Virus record (IMG/VR): IMGVR_UViG_3300008448_000665
Coordinates: 1 to 23,447 of that record
Reading direction: 5' to 3' (one strand)
DNA: 23,447 nt
Source: a virus
A program made the translations under genes and the position numbers. Shown in pieces: positions 11,806 through 23,447 of this stretch. Every line of letters begins with the position of its first letter. The stretch's first letter is position 1. Under the pieces are notes generated by a model. The model did not search any database, was not told where the DNA came from, and was given only the letters and a program-made list of their open reading frames with translations.

Positions 11806-14448
11806 TTAACCTCCAGTGACGAGTGTTGGAGTAGCACAAAGACCTGGGCTTAGGTCGCTACCGGAACCGGAGCAACCTATGTAGTGTGTTACCGCTTCCG
11901 AAACTTGCCCCCTTGGTACAAAGTAGAGTTTATTTGTGGTTGGTGAGTACACCCCACCAGAATAACCAGCGTTTGCCATATTACTTATGTTTGGTGTGTA
12001 TGTGACTACAGTACCAGGGTTTTTACAATCGACGTAATGCCAAAGGCTCATTCCACTCGTACTAGGTATAAAATAGATACGGTCCAAAATAGGGTGGTAA
12101 ACAGCCCCAGAATAACCGCGTGACCCGCCTATCGTGGTATTTGTATATGTTCCGATCGATGGACTACTCACAGTATTTATATAATGGAATGTAGCCTGGT
12201 TCGCACGAGTGTTTGGGCTAAAGTAAACTCTTTTATTTAATGGTGAGTATGCGCCGCCAGCGTAGGCATATGCTGCCAGTGTTAGGCCATGTGCATAAGC
12301 GTTGACCCCATATGCATCAACAAAATGCCAGTTCGTTTGGTTTGATTGACCAGCAGGCACAAAGTAAATTCGGTCATTGCTAGGCGAATAAACCCCACCA
12401 TGATAAGCATAACTAACGGCTGTGGCACCATGCGCATAAGCAACCACATTCCCCGTAGCGCAATCAATATAGTGCCAGTTCGTTTGGTTAGCTTGTGCAG
12501 CTGGTACAAGATAGATACGATCCCAAACAGGGTGGTAAACACCCCCAATATAAGCATTAGATACCGCTGTAGCACCATGGGCATAAGCCACAATATTACC
12601 TGTATAACAGTCAACATAATGCCAATTTGTTTGGTTGGCTTGCCCATATGGTACAAAATAAACCCTGTTTTGCTTTGGCGAATAAACGGCACCCGCATAG
12701 GGATCTGCCCCTACAACAGTAGCACCGGAAGCGTACTGAACAATAGCACCAGTCTCACAATTTAAATAAAGCCAATCACGCGTATCCGCATTTGTACCAG
12801 GTGAAAAATATATCCTGTTCAAGGTTGGTACAAGTGCGCCACCAAAATAAGATTCAGGGGAATTGGCTGGCATGGCCATTGTGCCGGGGTATGCAAGTGA
12901 ATTCCTGTTCTTAAAATGTACTTTTCTAAGTATAGAAGAAAACTTGTCGCTGTTCGCATGTCTTATGTACTCATTACCATTGAAACTATCCCCATAGCCA
13001 TTTGTTCTGTAGGAATCCTCTGAAACAAAGCTCAAAGGCTCTAATTCATTAACAACAATGCTGTCGATTGTAATGTCTGCCCCAGGTGTGGTGGAACCAA
13101 CCGACTCCAACCTAAGTTTAGTGTTGCTTGTGTAGAAAGATTCAGGGGTCTGTAAAATGATTTCATAGTAACTTGGTAGTGATCCTGGAATAGTTAAATT
13201 TGCCTCGTTTATAATCTCATACTCTACCCATGTTCCGCTTCTATAAAACCCAACCTTCCACTCAAAACCTGTTAGGGTACCCGTAGGTACCATTTTTAAA
13301 ATTAATGTGGCCGTTAAAGCCTTTTTTTCTTGGTAGGTGTTATTGCTTCTTAATGTGAATTCAACATAGCTATTTGCAGATGACTGATTCTTGGTAATTA
13401 GTAGTGACTTATTTCCTTTAAGGATACCTGTACCTGTAACCGTAGAAATTGCAAAAACAGGTGAAACAATATCGCTTACGCTGTTTTCAAAATCAGGGTT
13501 TAGTACCAAATTGTTAGCACTTGAACCACCAAAAGTATTTAAACTTGTGCCGTCGTCGAACTTGGGTACCTTCATTGTGGTGTCGTAAACTAACGTGCCT
13601 TCCTTGCGCGTTAGTGCGTTAAGGTTAGTCGTTGTTCCCTTTGGAATCGTGATTCGTCTGCTGTTTGATGCTGCCCCCCCGTTAATATCCTTGTTAATAA
13701 TTTCCAACGTATTATCTGCTGTCGCTATTGGGACAAAAGCAACGCCAGTATCAATAACAGGAGTAAAAGTTGAATTTAAATAAATTAACGTCCCCGCATA
13801 ATTTGTAAACCCGAAAGTGTCAGATGTTTGCGGAAGCGTTAATCTACGAGTTGTGGAAGCCGTACCCCCGTCAAAAATCTTGTTCGTAAGTGTTTGCGTA
13901 CCATCAAGAGTAACAAGAGTCTTTAAAGTCGTTCCGTTGTCGAACTTAAGAAAGTTCAACGTCGTATCGTAAACTAACGTACCTTGCTTGCGCGTTAGTG
14001 CGTTAAGGTTAGTCGTCGTGTCCTTTGGAATCGTGATTCTACGTGTGTCCGCCGCTGTGCCGCCGTCAATGTCCTTATTCGTAAGTGTCTGCGTACCATC
14101 GATGGTAGCGAGGGGATTTAGATTCGTTCCGTCGTCGTACTTAAAAAAGTTCAACGTCGTGTCGTAAACTAACGTGCCTTGCTTGCGCGTTAGTGCGTTA
14201 AGGTTAGTCGTCGTGTCCTTTGGAATCGTGATTCTACGTGTGTCCGCCGCTATGCCGCCGTCAAAATCCTTATTCGTAAGGACTTGGGCTGTGTCTGTGT
14301 CCACGAAAGTTTTCCACACCGATCCGTTATAAATTTTAGACACCAAATCAGTGGTATGAAAATATAACAACCCCATCGAAGCGGGTGTCGGATCAGAAGC
14401 TAAATTATGCAATTGCGCATACTCAAGCTGGCCAAGAGTAAGACCCAT
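11806..14448 (-). CDS. Modular fibre protein: stalk repeats, CBM-like domain, seven propeller-like repeats (880 aa)
   Basis: ATG at 14448 follows GGAG with seven bases of spacing. Residues about 50-310 contain four ~65-residue modules of the type TLTNKDIDGG, then RRITIPKDTTTNLNALTRK and GTLVYDTT; two or three are nearly identical and one is divergent. Residues about 315-480 (VLNPDFENS onward) resemble a jelly-roll carbohydrate-binding-type domain. Residues 535-880 hold seven repeats of 47-51 residues with the core GGVYSPxxDRIYFVP, NWHYVDC and AYAHGAT, expected to form a seven-bladed propeller. This fits a surface-binding fibre. It lies directly after the capsid gene, so it may be a head fibre rather than a tail fibre. 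Function is inferred. Confidence 0.82.
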   Translation of the reverse strand: MGLTLGQLEYAQLHNLASDPTPASMGLLYFHTTDLVSKIYNGSVWKTFVDTDTAQVLTNKDFDGGIAADTRRITIPKDTTTNLNALTRKQGTLVYDTTLNFFKYDDGTNLNPLATIDGTQTLTNKDIDGGTAADTRRITIPKDTTTNLNALTRKQGTLVYDTTLNFLKFDNGTTLKTLVTLDGTQTLTNKIFDGGTASTTRRLTLPQTSDTFGFTNYAGTLIYLNSTFTPVIDTGVAFVPIATADNTLEIINKDINGGAASNSRRITIPKGTTTNLNALTRKEGTLVYDTTMKVPKFDDGTSLNTFGGSSANNLVLNPDFENSVSDIVSPVFAISTVTGTGILKGNKSLLITKNQSSANSYVEFTLRSNNTYQEKKALTATLILKMVPTGTLTGFEWKVGFYRSGTWVEYEIINEANLTIPGSLPSYYEIILQTPESFYTSNTKLRLESVGSTTPGADITIDSIVVNELEPLSFVSEDSYRTNGYGDSFNGNEYIRHANSDKFSSILRKVHFKNRNSLAYPGTMAMPANSPESYFGGALVPTLNRIYFSPGTNADTRDWLYLNCETGAIVQYASGATVVGADPYAGAVYSPKQNRVYFVPYGQANQTNWHYVDCYTGNIVAYAHGATAVSNAYIGGVYHPVWDRIYLVPAAQANQTNWHYIDCATGNVVAYAHGATAVSYAYHGGVYSPSNDRIYFVPAGQSNQTNWHFVDAYGVNAYAHGLTLAAYAYAGGAYSPLNKRVYFSPNTRANQATFHYINTVSSPSIGTYTNTTIGGSRGYSGAVYHPILDRIYFIPSTSGMSLWHYVDCKNPGTVVTYTPNISNMANAGYSGGVYSPTTNKLYFVPRGQVSEAVTHYIGCSGSGSDLSPGLCATPTLVTGG
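11809..12846 (-). repeat. Seven ~150-bp repeats encoding propeller blades
   Basis: Seven consecutive units (50, 49, 49, 47, 50, 50 and 51 codons) encode the blade core GGVYSPxxDRIYFVP. Units 2-4 are the most similar, including at DNA level. Similarity is clear by eye; divergence is higher in units 1 and 5-7. Confidence 0.8.
13570..14300 (-). repeat. ~195-bp stalk modules in fibre gene
   Basis: Copies of a segment with GCGCGTTAGTGCGTTAAGG recur about 195 bp apart (14166 and 13971, counted at the same internal point), with a third conserved copy near 13587 and a diverged copy between. The encoded unit is about 65 residues. Near-identical DNA makes the stalk length prone to change by recombination. 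Confidence 0.8.
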
Positions 14449-14495: not shown

Positions 14496-15749
14496 TTAGT
14501 AGCTAATGCTATGGATGATACCGTTGTGACCAGGCTTGGTCCACTCCATTTCACCGAAAAGGGAAATGTCGAGAATGTACTGGTACCCGTCTTCAGTACG
14601 AACTTCGTAGTACTCTAGGCCATTAGGGCTTTTTCTCTTCTTGAAAAATCCATTTGATCGGAAGATCAAAGAAGACCAGTCAATGAAAGCAATGATATCG
14701 TCGTCCCACTCTTGGATACCTACGATAGTCAAAGCACCTTTGACACTAGTAATCTCAATCTCAGTCCAACCATAGAGACTTGCAGAAGCGTCCTTGGTGA
14801 CCATGTATGGTCCCTTTTGCGCTTGCAATAACTTCATGATGGAACCAAGGTGCTTGTAGCTCATCATGATAGTTTTTGCATTGCCCTTGGCGCGAGTACG
14901 AATCTCGGTATAGGCGTCAAAAATCTTGTCAAGAATATTAGCTGCGGTGATAGAACTCCCTGAAATATTAACGGCTTGCAGGTAAGGGTAGGCCAACTTA
15001 CTTACACCGTGCAAGGTAGAGGAACCGCCGTTTGCCGCACTCAACAGAGCCATACGGAAGCTAGTGAAAGTGTAGTTGTTACCTGCACCATCCGTAACAC
15101 CGTCGTGGTAAAACTTAGCCGCTTGTGCCGTGGTGTAAGCAGACAAATCAGCAGCAGCCCCGCCGCGAGTCAGGGAGAATGTTACCTCTTTTGTGTTTAC
15201 GTCAATTGCGATAACATAAATGTCTGCCTTAACAGAGTTACCGTCATCAATAACGCACTTCTGTCGCAACATGAAACGGTCAACACGGTCGACGATAAAT
15301 TTACCCGTTGCACCGTTTGTGCTGTCGGTCGCAGTCGCAAAATGCGGACCAGAACCAAGTTGGATAGATGTGACCATTTTGAAATAGTCCATCATTTCGT
15401 CGATCTCGTCTGGCAAAATCTTAAGGAAAGTATCCTCTGGGATTTTACCACTGTCATGCTGCATAAGGTCTGTGTGATTAAACAGCAGCGATCCCCAACA
15501 TTCGACGTAAGAATCTATACTACCACGCACGAACTTACTTTGAGCAATGTCAGAGGAAGCAGTAAGTTTTCCAAATCGAACCGAGCTGGCCGATGCACCA
15601 CGAAAAGGCACGACAATTTTTCCGCCCTTCCAATTGTCATCCTTTTCAACCTTGGTAAGGATATAATCGCGCTTGATTAGCTCCTCTTTCAAAAGTCGGT
15701 TCGGTAGATACTCATTCAACAAGTCTTGAAATTCACGAGTAGTTGCCAT
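14496..15749 (-). CDS. Major capsid protein (417 aa)
   Basis: ATG at 15749 follows AAAGGGG with about seven bases of spacing. The gene lies directly after a scaffold-like gene and before a terminator-like hairpin, the usual place of a major capsid gene. Size and features fit an HK97-fold coat protein: a charged N-terminal helix (FQDLLNEYLPNRLLKEELIK), a Gly/Ser loop (FRGASASSVRFGKLT), a long central helix region (DEIDEMMDYFKM), an inserted beta domain (about residues 150-220), and a C-terminal segment with YKHLGSIMKLLQAQKGPYM. I cannot name the coat family. No cleavage site or protease gene is seen, so scaffold may leave intact. Confidence 0.82.
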   Translation of the reverse strand: MATTREFQDLLNEYLPNRLLKEELIKRDYILTKVEKDDNWKGGKIVVPFRGASASSVRFGKLTASSDIAQSKFVRGSIDSYVECWGSLLFNHTDLMQHDSGKIPEDTFLKILPDEIDEMMDYFKMVTSIQLGSGPHFATATDSTNGATGKFIVDRVDRFMLRQKCVIDDGNSVKADIYVIAIDVNTKEVTFSLTRGGAAADLSAYTTAQAAKFYHDGVTDGAGNNYTFTSFRMALLSAANGGSSTLHGVSKLAYPYLQAVNISGSSITAANILDKIFDAYTEIRTRAKGNAKTIMMSYKHLGSIMKLLQAQKGPYMVTKDASASLYGWTEIEITSVKGALTIVGIQEWDDDIIAFIDWSSLIFRSNGFFKKRKSPNGLEYYEVRTEDGYQYILDISLFGEMEWTKPGHNGIIHSISY

Positions 15750-18820: not shown

Positions 18821-19241
18821 CTACATTATCTCCGCGTAAATGCCGGTCGATCTCATCTTGCTCGTAACCAAGGGGGTCGTCCAACATGCGCTGGGAAGCA
18901 GCTGCTTCACGTTCAACTTGGTCGGAAAACAATTCTTGGGAACTGCGCAAACGCTGATCGATCGGAGTATTTTCCGATTGCGGGTGGAATACAATGGATA
19001 AACCACCTAATTTGAGTTTATGTACTTTGTTATTGGAACATAATTCAATAATACGTGTCAAATTGTCAAGTTCAACCATATTGCCCGTTCCAAAATTCAA
19101 TTTCCCCGTACCAGTTTGGCTCGTCATCAGGGGGGTCAGTCCTTTCTCCTCGACGTGCTGCTGTTTCCTCTTCCTCGCGGCTACGCTTGACCGGCTTCGG
19201 GGTTTCGTCGATTTGTTTTTCGATCCTTTTGGTCTTCCCAT
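18780..19241 (-). CDS. Small basic AT-hook-like protein, overlaps TerL 3' end (153 aa)
   Basis: I chose ATG at 19241: GAGGAT lies about seven bases upstream, and the product begins MGRPKGSKNKSTKPRSRSSV, a GRPKGSK element like AT-hook or other phage DNA-contact tails. The first 56 codons overlap TerL in another frame (19072-19241). A shorter form from ATG 19079 (99 residues, 8-base overlap) is possible but has only weak ribosome-site sequence (GGAAC). The shared part reads VELDNLTRIIELCSNN, KVHKLKLGGLSIVFHP, then a charged helix-rich end. Small proteins with a short K-x-L-K-x-G-x-L motif often sit between TerL and portal genes. Role unknown. Confidence 0.62.
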   Translation of the reverse strand: MGRPKGSKNKSTKPRSRSSVAARKRKQQHVEEKGLTPLMTSQTGTGKLNFGTGNMVELDNLTRIIELCSNNKVHKLKLGGLSIVFHPQSENTPIDQRLRSSQELFSDQVEREAAASQRMLDDPLGYEQDEIDRHLRGDNVGASINDRQDQLLV

Positions 19242-20724
19242 CTCTAATCCTCGCATTCGCAAAATTAAAATCCCAAGGTATAGCCACCGTGCCATACCTC
19301 AAACAATCAGCTAAATCGTCCTTAGCCTTAGTCTTAGGTGTGTTTACCATCAAGCCCATAAGTTCAGACACAAGTTTGCTCATCTCCGTGCCTTCCATAA
19401 TGAAAAGCATGTCAGCAGCAAACATAGTGTTAACCGCATCAGTACCTATGGCATGGTCCTTGTTTGCCATGATAAAATTCTCACCCGATCGGCTGGCGAG
19501 AGTGTGAAAATCCTTTGCAGCATAGTCATAGACCTGGAGCCACATCTGCTCAATACCAAGCCTTTCGCGTATCTGTCGGTATTTTTCAAGAAGATCGCCG
19601 GAAGTGGTATTTTCCGAATCCCCGCGCCAACCAGCAACAGCTATAGCCTTCCTGAAATCAGGTTTAACCGCGAAAAAAATAATCGCCGAAAAATGGTTCT
19701 TTTTGTCAGGCCCACCCGTTCCCTTGTCGACAACACCAAGCCAAAGCCAATTGGAAGGAATCGCTTGCATAGGAATAATATGCGTAGCAGGGTCAAAATT
19801 AGGGTATTTACGCCCAACCTCCGTGACAAAACGCCCCTCAATACGTCGTAGTCGCTCAGTCTCAGACTTACAACCAGCCTCTTCGACACGTATGCGCTCC
19901 GGTGTCCAGGGAGAAGGCGAACCATCCTCGTAATAAAGACAGTCCCACTTTGAAACCTGTAGCTTAAGCGCATCAGGGAAGGATTCATCTTCCTCCTCGC
20001 CCTCAATCGCCTTGCGCCATAGCTCCTGGTTCATGGTTGCCGTAAAAACCATATGGAAATAGCCATTAGTCGCAGAAAGACGCAACCAAAGTTCATCCCA
20101 AAGGTGCTCCGGCAATTCCTCATCGCAAAAAATAGCGTCAACAGTACCAGTTTGTAAGTGTTGCGGGTTCTGTGTGTAAAATTTGAAATAACAAGTAATA
20201 CCAGAAGCAAAAGTTATCGACTCAATAAAACCCTGCGTGTCATACTCTTCTTTCCAACCGTAAACAGGGTCTTTTTTTAGCTCAATTTTAGGTAAAAACT
20301 CCTTTACAAACTTGTGCAGGAATTCCACCGTCGCTACTTGCTTGGAAGGATATAAATACCAAAACTGATTCGGGGTGCGGTTTGGCCAAAGTTTTGGCCA
20401 AAGGCTCTTGTCAGTCGCCCAATGTATCATTTTTCTAATATTGATCGACGATTTACTGATCTGGTTTGCAGCACAAAGTAAATTTATACGATTGGTCGAC
20501 TCAAAAAAAGTACGCGACCACTTATACATCGGAAAACCGTGCAAATGAGGCAAATTCTCACGAAGTTTTACCTCAAGCGCAACACGCTCCTCAGCCATTT
20601 TTTCTTTTTCACGCAAAACCTCAAGACGCTGTGCCTCAATTTTGGCTAAAAGTCGCCGTTTTTCGCGCAAAAGATCGCCAACTAGCTTTTGAGGTGCCGG
20701 TTCCCTGGGCTTTTTAGAACTCAT
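19072..20724 (-). CDS. Terminase large subunit (550 aa)
   Basis: I chose ATG at 20724, with GAGGAG about four bases upstream; TTG at 20736 is the alternative. The packaging ATPase contains Walker A-like AANQISKSS (residues 85-93), where the usual Gly before Lys-Ser is Ser, and Walker B VDAIFCDEELPEH (195-207). Motif-like TATMNQE follows (228-234). The C-terminal RNase H-like nuclease has candidate acidic residues D333 (GVVDKG), D400 (VYDYAAKD) and D469/D470 (AKDDLADCL). The N-terminal 55 residues are a basic/acidic coiled coil (LREKRRLLAKIEAQRLEVLR). It acts with TerS and the portal. The C-terminal 50 residues are charged and probably disordered, and share DNA with an overlapping gene. Confidence 0.9.
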   Translation of the reverse strand: MSSKKPREPAPQKLVGDLLREKRRLLAKIEAQRLEVLREKEKMAEERVALEVKLRENLPHLHGFPMYKWSRTFFESTNRINLLCAANQISKSSINIRKMIHWATDKSLWPKLWPNRTPNQFWYLYPSKQVATVEFLHKFVKEFLPKIELKKDPVYGWKEEYDTQGFIESITFASGITCYFKFYTQNPQHLQTGTVDAIFCDEELPEHLWDELWLRLSATNGYFHMVFTATMNQELWRKAIEGEEEDESFPDALKLQVSKWDCLYYEDGSPSPWTPERIRVEEAGCKSETERLRRIEGRFVTEVGRKYPNFDPATHIIPMQAIPSNWLWLGVVDKGTGGPDKKNHFSAIIFFAVKPDFRKAIAVAGWRGDSENTTSGDLLEKYRQIRERLGIEQMWLQVYDYAAKDFHTLASRSGENFIMANKDHAIGTDAVNTMFAADMLFIMEGTEMSKLVSELMGLMVNTPKTKAKDDLADCLRYGTVAIPWDFNFANARIRDGKTKRIEKQIDETPKPVKRSREEEETAARRGERTDPPDDEPNWYGEIEFWNGQYG

Positions 20725-21496
20725 CAGGCTCCTCAACTATCCGTTGAGGAACGCCACTAGGTAAAATCTCTGCGTCCTCATACTCCTCATAAGGCGCGTC
20801 AGCAGTCGAAATACCACCAATCTGCAAACGCTCCTCTAACCCCTTGAGCTGACTCTCAAGCGACGATAACTTATCCACCGCCGATAGTGGCTCAGGGTCA
20901 GCCGTAACATTTACATTCAAAGATTTCTGATTCACATCCTGCTTTATCTCACTACGCTGGACAACAGTTCCGTAAACCCTATTTTGTAGCGTTTCAATCG
21001 TCATACGAACCTGCGCCACAATCGCCGTATGCACAACATCCTTCATCAAAGGCATACCGTTGTCGTCGCGTATGATCTGGCCCTTAGCCGAAACGTATGG
21101 AACCCTCGTGACAAAAGGTAACGCCAATATCTCGCGCATACGCTCCATGCCAAGCGTCAACATCTCTTCTGCCTGAAGGTCAAAAGCAGCAGGGCGAATA
21201 GCTAGCCAAGCAAAAATCTCAGGCACAACCAGAAGCTCTAACAGCCTCTCCTCCGTAATCGTACCCGTCAAACAACGCATAAGGCTCATGCGTCGATCCT
21301 CGGAGAAGGCAATGTCATACTCGCGCCAAACCGCAATGCGCAATCGCTTGAGTTCTGGCTCAGGCTCTAAAGCCCGCGCCAGCTCAGATTCAGACATCTT
21401 AAAACACTGTTTAGGAATTTTATCGAAGGCAGCTCGAAATACGGCAGGTGCTAAATTGTAAAGACTTTTAGAATTGTGGCGGTCGAGGGGCTTCAC
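20714..21496 (-). CDS. Probable terminase small subunit (260 aa)
   Basis: It lies directly before TerL, which it overlaps by 11 bases. The open frame extends to ATG 21862 (382 residues), but that part is a 395-base overlap with the recombinase. I prefer GTG at 21496, with GGAGGA seven bases upstream and only a 29-base overlap. The protein is helical and charged (LARALEPEPELKRL, FAWLAIRPAAFDLQAEEM). The segment TIETLQNRVYGTVVQRSEIK followed by DVNQKSLNVNV resembles the DNA-binding and tail parts of phage small terminases, and a coiled coil follows (SSLESQLKGLEERL). TerS recognises the packaging site and stimulates TerL. Function is inferred mostly from position. Confidence 0.65.
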   Translation of the reverse strand: MKPLDRHNSKSLYNLAPAVFRAAFDKIPKQCFKMSESELARALEPEPELKRLRIAVWREYDIAFSEDRRMSLMRCLTGTITEERLLELLVVPEIFAWLAIRPAAFDLQAEEMLTLGMERMREILALPFVTRVPYVSAKGQIIRDDNGMPLMKDVVHTAIVAQVRMTIETLQNRVYGTVVQRSEIKQDVNQKSLNVNVTADPEPLSAVDKLSSLESQLKGLEERLQIGGISTADAPYEEYEDAEILPSGVPQRIVEEPDEF

Positions 21497-22757
21497 CCCC
21501 GCTTCCTCCAGCTCCTCCGTCTGATACCCCAAGTGCGTCAGAGCCACTTTCAACTGGTCCCTGTTTAGCAAGGGCTTCGCGAAGTTCGCGGCGATCCCGT
21601 CGCCAATCTGTGACATAACCCGACGCTTCTTTTCGAGCACGCTTTCGCTCGGCGTTAGCTCGCTGTTCGTCGGTTCTTGCCATGATTCGGTCGTAGGCGA
21701 CGTTACCGGCAGCACGTATCTCCCGTCTTCGCTGCTCAATATCTTCTGCGCACCTGTAGCTTGGGTCGGAACGCCAGGCTTCGACTTGCTCTGCGGAAAT
21801 ACCCGCTGCAAAAGCCCATCCGAATGGTCGATACTCTCCAAGTCCCACTGTCTCGTAGTCATCAGGGTTAGATCCAGGGTAAAATTTTGGCATCACAATA
21901 CGTTTATAATGCTCGATAACCGTCTTTTCAGATACACCTAAAAGAGTTCCTATCTCATGAAAGTATAACCCATTTTGTCGGAATTCAAGCAATAAAGCCG
22001 GATCGATATTTTTCCACTGCGTACCAAATAGTTTTCCACGCGACCTAGCAAAGTCCTGGCCCGCCATTATTCGCTCAGAAATAATCGCCGCTTCAAACTC
22101 GGCAAAGGCACCGAGCATCTGATACATAAGCCTTCCAGCGGGTGTCGAAAAATCAAGATTCTCTGTCATCGAAACAAATGTACAGTTATGCGCATGTACC
22201 AATTTTATTATATTCAGTAAATCCAACATCGATCGAGCAATACGGTCGAGCTTCCAACAAACTATCATCGTGTATCGCTTCTCAGTTACATGTCGCAGTA
22301 GATCTTGCAAAGATTTACGGGCAATCTGTACACCCGTCGCATTGTCCGCATATATGTGCGGTTCCGGCCAACCCCTTAGCCTACAATAATCATTTATAGC
22401 CTTCACTTGCATCGATACACTTTGATCTTTCGTCGACACACGTACATATGCGGCAATGCGCTCCTGGCCCAGGGCTACGGGCGCAGGTAAAGTTTCGGGT
22501 TGTATGAAATCTAATCGATCGAGGGGGTCGGTCGGTGGCTTGGGTTTTGGGGTGTCAGGTAACTTTAAACCTAACTCTAATAATCGCTCCCGATCCAATT
22601 CGTCAATCGTGATCGGTTTGGACGGGTCGTGCATATGCTCGCGTAAAATTTTGTTGTGCAGTCGTCCTAGGCGGGACAACCCTAGCTTACGGGCACGGGA
22701 TTGCCCTGGCGTTAACTTTCCTGGCAGTCGTTTCGGTTGCTTCTTGTCGTTAGACAT
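21468..22757 (-). CDS. Serine recombinase (resolvase/invertase type) with extensions (429 aa)
   Basis: ATG at 22757 has AGGAG about ten bases upstream. Residues 100-235 are a resolvase catalytic domain: YVRVSTKDQ with R106 and nucleophile S108, CWKLDRIARS (167-176, containing the conserved D-R-x-x-R), and LDFSTPAGRLMYQMLGAFAE then EFEAAIISERIMAG. A helix-turn-helix DNA-binding domain follows (about 250-288, FHEIGTLLGVSEKTV). The catalytic Ser is normally near residue 10; here a basic 100-residue N-terminal extension precedes it. A further ~140 residues (Arg/Ala/Glu-rich helix, Gly-rich end) follow the HTH. It cuts DNA by a Ser linkage and rejoins it at paired sites. Whether it resolves multimers, inverts DNA or controls packaging is not shown. 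Confidence 0.88.
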   Translation of the reverse strand: MSNDKKQPKRLPGKLTPGQSRARKLGLSRLGRLHNKILREHMHDPSKPITIDELDRERLLELGLKLPDTPKPKPPTDPLDRLDFIQPETLPAPVALGQERIAAYVRVSTKDQSVSMQVKAINDYCRLRGWPEPHIYADNATGVQIARKSLQDLLRHVTEKRYTMIVCWKLDRIARSMLDLLNIIKLVHAHNCTFVSMTENLDFSTPAGRLMYQMLGAFAEFEAAIISERIMAGQDFARSRGKLFGTQWKNIDPALLLEFRQNGLYFHEIGTLLGVSEKTVIEHYKRIVMPKFYPGSNPDDYETVGLGEYRPFGWAFAAGISAEQVEAWRSDPSYRCAEDIEQRRREIRAAGNVAYDRIMARTDEQRANAERKRARKEASGYVTDWRRDRRELREALAKQGPVESGSDALGVSDGGAGGSGGEAPRPPQF

Positions 22758-22792
22758 ATGGCCGTGTCTCCTAGTTAAAAAAATTTCGGCGC

Positions 22793-22819
22793 ATTATAAC
22801 ATACAATCTCAAAAAGCAA
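22793..22819 (-). promoter_or_regulatory. Sigma70-type promoter for recombinase and late operon
   Basis: The minus strand reads TTGCTT, 15 bases, then TATAAT (22798-22793), and the -10 is preceded by TG (22801-22800) one base earlier, the extended -10 pattern. The TATAAT is perfect; the -35 is weak and slightly close. Predicted start is near 22786, about 30 bases before the recombinase ATG. Confidence 0.65.
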
Positions 22820-22856
22820 GTAACTTTTTTCCGGGGGAGTTTTTTAAGGGGCGGGG

Positions 22857-22916
22857 AAAAAAATTTCGGGGGACAGGGGATTGACCTTAACATTTCCAGT
22901 TGCCCCCCTAGCCCCC
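22857..22916 (-). terminator. G/C-tract hairpin followed by T-run, possible terminator or attenuator
   Basis: On the minus strand, GGGGGCTAGGGG (22916 leftward) can pair with CCCCTGTCCCCC (to 22868), leaving a loop of about 25 bases, followed by GAAATTTTTTT. It would stop transcripts that enter from the right before the recombinase promoter. The large loop and mismatches lower confidence. The plus strand of this area (22833-22879) carries five G-tracts of four or more, so a G-quadruplex is another reading. Confidence 0.45.
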
Positions 22917-22936
22917 GTCAAATTCCTGAGTTTTTC

Positions 22937-22974
22937 CAATGGGTTACGAGATCCCCAATTATTTCAATGGGTTA
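22937..22974. repeat. Two direct 10-bp repeats (CAATGGGTTA)
   Basis: CAATGGGTTA occurs at 22937-22946 and 22965-22974, 28 bp apart (start to start). They lie just left of the inverted-repeat pair, close to helical phase, and could be protein-binding sites. No known factor is identified. Confidence 0.55.
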
Positions 22975-22976
22975 TG

Positions 22977-23030
22977 TTGGCATGATTCTTGCATGTGGCA
23001 GGTAACCGATGTATGCAAGAACCGTGCCAA
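22977..23030. repeat. Inverted-repeat pair 1 with sigma54-like half-sites
   Basis: The left arm, plus strand 22977-22995, is TTGGCATGATTCTTGCATG. The right arm, minus strand 23030-23012, is TTGGCACGGTTCTTGCATA. They match at 16 of 19 positions and are separated by 16 bp containing GGTAACC. Each arm also fits the sigma54 -24/-12 pattern TGGCACR-N4-TTGCW, the right arm exactly; it points toward the recombinase. It could be promoters, an operator or a recombination site. Confidence 0.65.
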
Positions 23031-23214
23031 ACCATTTTGTGTAATGATTTCAGTTACTTACAAAAATACGCAGGGAATTTAGTAAATTGCAATTTTTCCA
23101 AGGTGCCGGAATTGTTGGGGAAATTGGAATCTAATTTAGTTCAATGATATTAAATGGTTATTTCGCTCAAACTGTAACATGCCGAAATTACACAAATCTT
23201 ATCAACGATGCCCT

Positions 23215-23250
23215 TTGGCACATTTTTTGCTAATTCAAGATTTATGCCAA
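23215..23250. repeat. Inverted-repeat pair 2 with sigma54-like half-sites
   Basis: The plus arm at 23215-23233 is TTGGCACATTTTTTGCTAA and the minus arm at 23250-23232 is TTGGCATAAATCTTGAATT. These share the TTGGCAYR outer part and TTG with pair 1; the arms abut, giving a 36-bp imperfect palindrome. The plus arm matches the sigma54 consensus TGGCACR-N4-TTGCW exactly; the minus arm lacks the final C. Together with pair 1 there are four related half-sites within 275 bp. Confidence 0.6.
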
Positions 23251-23297
23251 CTATTTTTTATATAAAAATTTTTCTCGCGATTTTTTAAAGCTAATCT
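23251..23297. other. AT-rich segment next to inverted repeats
   Basis: About 47 bases here are mostly A and T (including TTTTTTATATAAAAATTTTT), with one CGCG. A TTATCAACG at 23200-23208, within two mismatches of a DnaA box (TTATCCACA), lies nearby. It may be an easily melted element of an origin, or just promoter context. The evidence is composition only. Confidence 0.35.
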
Positions 23298-23310
23298 TGT
23301 AACCGATTGT

Positions 23311-23346
23311 TATTACTACCGTAATACAACAAAAAGGGTTTGTCAA
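23311..23346 (-). promoter_or_regulatory. Possible promoter with operator-like palindrome
   Basis: The minus strand has TTGACA (23346-23341), a perfect -35, with a weak -10 TACGGT 17 bases on (23323-23318). The palindrome TATTAC-TACC-GTAATA (23311-23326) lies over the -10, as an operator would. The -10 match is poor, so the promoter is tentative. It would transcribe toward the recombinase. Confidence 0.38.
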
Positions 23347-23375
23347 GTAAAAAATTTGTAGCCGATCGTGCTGAA

Positions 23376-23447
23376 GTGTTGTTCGTGCTGTTCGTGCCGA
23401 TCGTGCTGTTCGTGCTGTTCGTGCTGTTCGTGCTGTTCGTGCTGTTC
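23376..23447. repeat. 9-bp tandem repeat array running off right edge
   Basis: Eight units of GTGCTGTTC fill 23376-23447; unit 1 (GTGTTGTTC) and unit 3 (GTGCCGATC) are variant, and the array is cut by the edge. Because the unit is 9 bp it keeps frame: minus-strand reading gives repeated Glu-Gln-His up to a stop at 23343-23345, and plus-strand reading gives Val-Leu-Phe. Whether it is coding, iteron-like or packaging-related is undecided. Confidence 0.75.

Follow-up and report, generated by a model that had tools for sequence, protein, structure and literature searches.

The closest precedent for the element analysed here is provided by the clusters of CtrA-binding sites in alphaproteobacterial phages, which have been discussed in terms of 'lytic deferment' (PMC9437464). 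Like our element, these clusters are linked to promoters, occur in several unrelated phage lineages and are gained or lost among relatives. They are built from TTAA-N7-TTAA, whereas the phage pairs described below use the sigma54 -24/-12 motif in a stereotyped facing geometry and in 54-bp arrays; moreover, the phages that bear the pairs are more diverse, and nearly all of those seen here come from metagenomes. The second system to which the element has to be compared is the sigma54-dependent promoter, with the published consensus TGGCAC-N5-7-TTGCT (PMC12316311). The conserved positions and the spacing of such promoters are common to the phage arms, but fixed-gap facing pairs are almost absent from cellular genomes, and the phage arms have no gene-direction preference, lie beside sigma70-type promoters and occur in phages in which no activator was found.

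Sigma54 occurs in many bacterial phyla and has the same specificity in all of them. The enzyme it forms stays idle until an activator signal arrives, and promoters of this type depend on RpoN and an AAA+ activator being present in the cell. From genome-wide binding in E. coli, sigma54 can reportedly occupy sites other than the promoter of the neighbouring gene; those are scattered single bacterial sites, whereas here we deal with paired phage elements. In the literature searched, subscription literature aside, there was no account of sigma54-type site clusters in phages, and the arrangement, in which the host sigma54 promoter signal occurs as two copies that face each other beside the start of the late (virion) genes, is apparently new.

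Four arms in a phage control region

The window, i.e. the whole stretch of 23,447 bp that was analysed, is a complete IMG/VR record and represents a podovirus-like genome fragment. Its minus strand holds all late genes, namely those for a serine recombinase, a putative small terminase, the large terminase subunit (TerL), the portal and the virion proteins. The element lies in a probably non-coding control region (22758-23375), flanked on one side by the leftward recombinase/terminase/structural operon and on the other by the missing right-hand part of the genome. On the left side, the first gene 3' of the element encodes the serine recombinase (21468-22757, minus strand; Resolvase domain at residues 101-242), and TerL (PHROG 2; 19072-20736, minus strand) leads the structural operon, which has the element on its 5' side. 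The right end of the record (23376-23447) is inside eight copies of the 9-bp repeat GTGCTGTTC. This end is probably an assembly break, and the record lacks the operon to the right of the control region.

With both strands considered, the pattern TTGGCAYRNNTYTTG is matched exactly four times in the window, at 22977-22991 (plus), 23016-23030 (minus), 23215-23229 (plus) and 23236-23250 (minus), against 0.00 expected from 100 dinucleotide shuffles. Arm 1 (22977-22993, plus strand; TTGGCATGATTCTTGCA), which has T at position 7 of the motif and is hence called a T-arm, carries a full sigma54-type -24/-12 element and is faced by arm 2, a C-arm (23014-23030, minus strand; TTGGCACGGTTCTTGCA). Arm 3, also a C-arm with a full -24/-12 element (23215-23231, plus strand; TTGGCACATTTTTTGCT), faces the T-arm 4 (23234-23250, minus strand; TTGGCATAAATCTTGAA), which is the weaker partner because of TTGA at -12. 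Measured from TTG to CAA, the inner gap is 24 bp in the pair at 22977-23030 and 6 bp in the pair at 23215-23250. The sigma54-type pattern TGGCAYR-N4-TTGCW, with its invariant spacing, fits three arms without mismatch (22978 plus, 23029 minus and 23216 plus) and the fourth (23249 minus) with a single mismatch, the TTGA. A sequence-only reading of this DNA had described four related arms, TTGGCAYR-N2-TYTTG, in two facing pairs, considered them unlikely to be due to chance, and named two exact matches to TGGCACR-N4-TTGCW (23030 minus and 23215 plus). All of this was confirmed, except that the conserved unit comprises 17 bp and not the 19 bp given there.

If the usual 12-nt rule is applied, transcription from arm 1 would begin near 23004 and run rightward, and that from arm 2 would begin near 23003 and run leftward, toward recombinase and terminase. 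The two start points of this pair would thus be adjacent bases, and the transcripts would diverge. A TATAAT (22793-22798, minus strand), read by eye some 36 bp ahead of the start of the recombinase gene, is probably the -10 of a sigma70 promoter, with the first pair a further 180-230 bp upstream; the -35 of this promoter is weak, and it failed the -35/-10 scan. The control region also holds a motif private to this window, TAACCSATKK, which occurs six times in the window versus 0.48 expected. Four of the six copies lie in the control region, interleaved with the arms (22937-22946 and 22965-22974, minus; 23003-23012 and 23300-23309, plus), and could be operators of the phage's own regulator.

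Recurrence and anatomy of the facing pair

The sequence-only reading was right about the arms, but it treated them as a local peculiarity and thereby undersold them, since they are members of a family that recurs and has preferred gaps. At least 119 IMG/VR stretches contain two arms that face each other across 3-32 bp. Among the matches listed, the gaps peak strongly at 6 bp (5-9), with a second group at 24-28 bp, and the gaps of 6 and 24 bp in the window fall inside these two groups. The strict version, which requires four bases from one TTGC element to the other, is found in 119 IMG/VR stretches, whereas controls of the same information content gave none (arms with an internal spacing of five bases rather than four) or one (permuted arm). 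Bacterial and archaeal genomes totalling 257 Gb gave only 4 stretches with a facing pair for a pattern that allowed a wider range of gaps. One cellular match, from a Spirochaetia metagenome-assembled contig, was dropped: it is a dispersed REP-like hairpin repeat, the stem of which imitates the facing pair. On that contig the repeat lies at 680-800 and 15160-15290, near norB and flavorubredoxin-like genes. The contig of a deltaproteobacterial match has many short open frames and gave no informative Pfam match for the two proteins tested; it may be a phage contig. The arms of the window are one example of a cis element specific to phages, composed of half-sites of the sigma54 -24/-12 type, most of them in facing pairs. 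There is good support for this anatomy, whereas the identity of the bound protein and the mechanism, to which we return below, are inferred.

In 1.08 Mb of motif-selected viral loci we counted 457 half-sites, compared to 0-2 for wrong spacings or permutations. Because the loci of the first round were picked with a pattern derived from the window, counts at the constrained positions are biased there, which is partly addressed by a relaxed search within the same loci and by relatives fetched without selection. When positions 7, 8, 12 and 17 were left unconstrained, the relaxed search recovered C/T, G/A, T/C and A/T, respectively. These unimposed preferences (Y, R, Y and W) reproduce the sigma54 -24/-12 logo, so that the resemblance noted in the window is upheld at every position across many independent copies.

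The geometry is equally stereotyped. In a set of 660 distinct half-sites, the 16-bp elements of a facing pair are separated by two bases in 95 cases and, less often, by 3-5, and copies on the same strand are 54 bp apart 41 times and 108 bp apart 13 times. At position 7, C in one arm is usually combined with T in its partner (61 of 85 pairs, Fisher p 6e-5; 100 of 139 in the relaxed set), and both pairs of the window follow this rule. The C- and T-arms show no polarity relative to the direction of the terminase (21 vs. 22). An RNA or DNA hairpin was considered and rejected: matching between arms does not exceed chance at positions 10-11 and falls below it at positions 7 and 9, and the missing symmetry excess at 10-11 together with the deficit at 9 makes a hairpin unlikely. 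The search for tRNAs or known RNA families as targets gave none of note.

Individual phages surround the shared sites with motifs of their own, such as CTGCCATTTTGGCAG in locus L016 and AACAGANNTCTGTT in locus L168. Pair arrays in the 54-bp register were seen in L062, L069, L092, L032, L038 and L416, some of them diverged in sequence with the spacing kept. In L016 (1-6700), L109 (1-4000) and L168 (5700-7000), cassettes recur every 0.5-1 kb, consisting of a terminator-like hairpin, sigma54-like sites, a promoter-like block (sigma70 or another conserved type) and one or two tiny genes, and each of these phages has its own extra palindrome.

Genomic position and bearer phages

Gene calls were based on simple coding potential, without Prodigal, and single spacer labels can err, while the statistics use hundreds of sites. 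Only 7 of roughly 400 half-sites lie inside genes. Divergent contexts outnumber convergent ones by 124 to 8, but convergent spacers total only 3.4 kb, and the weight is therefore carried by the comparison with tandem spacers, in which the density is 0.51 sites per kb as against 2.64 in divergent spacers. Where TerL could be recognised (57 loci), the pair is on its 5' side in 54, usually with only co-directional genes in between. The sites are also clustered (e.g. 8 within 430 bp of a 43.6-kb record; 0-1 for the reversed-pattern control). As in the CtrA-type clusters, they are thus concentrated in one or a few regions of the genome, are intergenic and associated with promoters, and occur independently in unrelated lineages.

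Do the arms behave as promoters of the adjacent genes? A sigma54 promoter should point at the gene it drives, but the single arms in tandem spacers of related loci run with the gene direction in 36 cases and against it in 56. Sigma70-type promoters beside the sites face outward in 73 of 269 flanks and inward in 14. In L016, tandem plus-strand arms are located just upstream of near-perfect sigma70 promoters that belong to minus-strand genes. The lack of a direction bias and the outward sigma70 promoters indicate that the sites act like regulatory elements upstream of sigma70 promoters rather than as the promoters of those genes.

The bearers range from short fragments to genomes of 223 kb and from podo- to T4-like phages, with a GC content of 32-63%; they include phages with rIIA and gp55-like genes, Zobellviridae-like podophages and others. 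No protein family is present in more than 8 of 19 sampled bearer genomes, which have 32-60% GC, the most widely shared families being structural and none a regulator, and no common DNA-binding protein or regulator emerged from the 19 genomes at strict or lax thresholds. A phage-encoded sigma54 or AAA+ activator was rejected, as neither turned up in the bearer records: the Sigma54_activat domain (PF00158) was missing from 50 records and Sigma54_DBD, or any phage-encoded sigma54, from 43, many of the records in both sets being fragments. Sixteen cultured or named relatives have 0-2 scattered half-sites each and no cluster. When relatives of the window's TerL and portal were fetched regardless of the motif, 8 of 125 loci carried any site (17 sites vs. 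2 in reversed sequence). The sites in these eight are mostly upstream of TerL, and one of the eight loci has a nine-site array in the 54-bp register. Most relatives thus lack the arms, and with this patchiness within the window's own phage family the element is often gained or lost, at a similar genomic position.

Candidate readers of the pair

A motif that is common to unrelated phages of such different GC content, and that comes without a common regulator, points to a host factor. The near absence of pairs from host genomes argues against a host factor that itself uses the pair. Sigma54 is favoured because single arms are used in hosts, because its specificity is the same across phyla and because the match extends to every conserved position. 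We therefore suppose, at somewhat less than an even chance, that a host-encoded protein with the DNA specificity of sigma54, in all likelihood sigma54-RNA polymerase, reads the element. The facing pairs beside late genes of many unrelated phages suggest a transcription factor of the host that these phages read or exploit. Several observations count against the sigma54 reading. Ordinary promoter use predicts a gene-direction preference, which single arms do not have; independent sigma54 promoters predict neither the 54-bp register of the arrays nor the C/T asymmetry of the arms; no site for a sigma54 activator was identified; and cellular genomes hardly use the pair.

A different protein with a sigma54-like preference, either phage-encoded and diverged beyond detection or a host protein, might instead bind pairs and 54-bp arrays cooperatively and control the flanking sigma70 promoters. 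We regard such an operator as a lesser, though serious, possibility. It would account for single arms without direction bias and for sites upstream of sigma70-type promoters, and the facing pairs and the register suggest cooperative binding. However, even the lax threshold revealed no DNA-binding protein common to the 19 genomes, a host regulator should have left the pair in more than 4 stretches of host genomes, and the position-by-position agreement with sigma54 would be a coincidence. With the half-sites for a dimeric regulator envisaged by the sequence-only reading, the paired geometry fits, but a gap that varies, arms that stand alone and the absence of a common regulator do not. The same reading had also proposed sigma54 promoters, which it called unusual for late phage genes. 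As conventional promoters, the arms would drive the leftward recombinase/late operon and a rightward unit, and each pair would be a compact bidirectional promoter. The exact -24/-12 elements, the divergent geometry of both transcripts, the preference for divergent spacers and the presence of nearly all arms on one strand in some loci (e.g. L015) speak for it. We nevertheless consider it unlikely; apart from the sequence match, the proposal is weakened by the excess of tandem-spacer arms opposing their gene, by sigma70-type promoters between sites and genes, by the arms in L016 that point away from genes served by near-perfect sigma70 promoters, by leaders that would often span 200-500 nt, and by the lack of a viral activator.

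As the pair lies close to terS and terL, the small terminase might bind it as a packaging signal (cosB/pac). This is very improbable, given that the genes following the pair belong to different families from lineage to lineage and that the sites are not tied to one small-terminase family, are scattered in some genomes across several spacers and as much as 18 kb, are linked to promoters and are missing from most relatives of the window's TerL. Binding or recombination sites of the adjacent serine recombinase, the remaining proposal of the sequence-only reading, can be practically dismissed: the adjacency is confined to the window, the only one of 43 site-bearing records with a Resolvase domain. 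Moreover, res or inversion sites are unlike the window's two pairs, whose spacing differs by 18 bp.

On the favoured reading, unrelated phages would have acquired the element convergently, as in the case of CtrA sites in alphaproteobacterial phages. Each arm points outward across its partner. With -12 elements only a few bp from each other, or with coinciding start points, a pair should hold no more than one polymerase at any moment. The bound enzyme might wait as a closed complex and so modulate or insulate neighbouring sigma70 promoters, or it might fire divergently when a host activator is active; either option would tie the expression programme of the phage to the state of the host. We tentatively propose, with a little less confidence than in the reader itself, a class of phage element that is acquired repeatedly and couples the early/late switch to the host's sigma54 polymerase, and hence to nitrogen, motility and pilus state, with the holoenzyme possibly regulating nearby sigma70 promoters instead of transcribing. 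Were this true, sigma54 would serve many environmental phages as a sensor of host state, extending the CtrA precedent, the hosts of bearer phages must carry rpoN, and the 36-bp facing pair would be a simple sequence signature with which to locate the control regions of uncultured phages. If the bound protein is other than sigma54, the element would still mark a widespread regulator that is not yet known.

Two further features of the window concern its late genes. A stretch of 395 bp (21468-21862) is shared, in different frames, by the recombinase ORF and the ORF downstream of it for the putative small terminase, and the small terminase probably starts further in than its ORF. An 880-residue ORF (11806-14448, minus strand) with a weak match to a tail-fibre family contains two tandem 195-bp copies with 88% matches (13868-14280).
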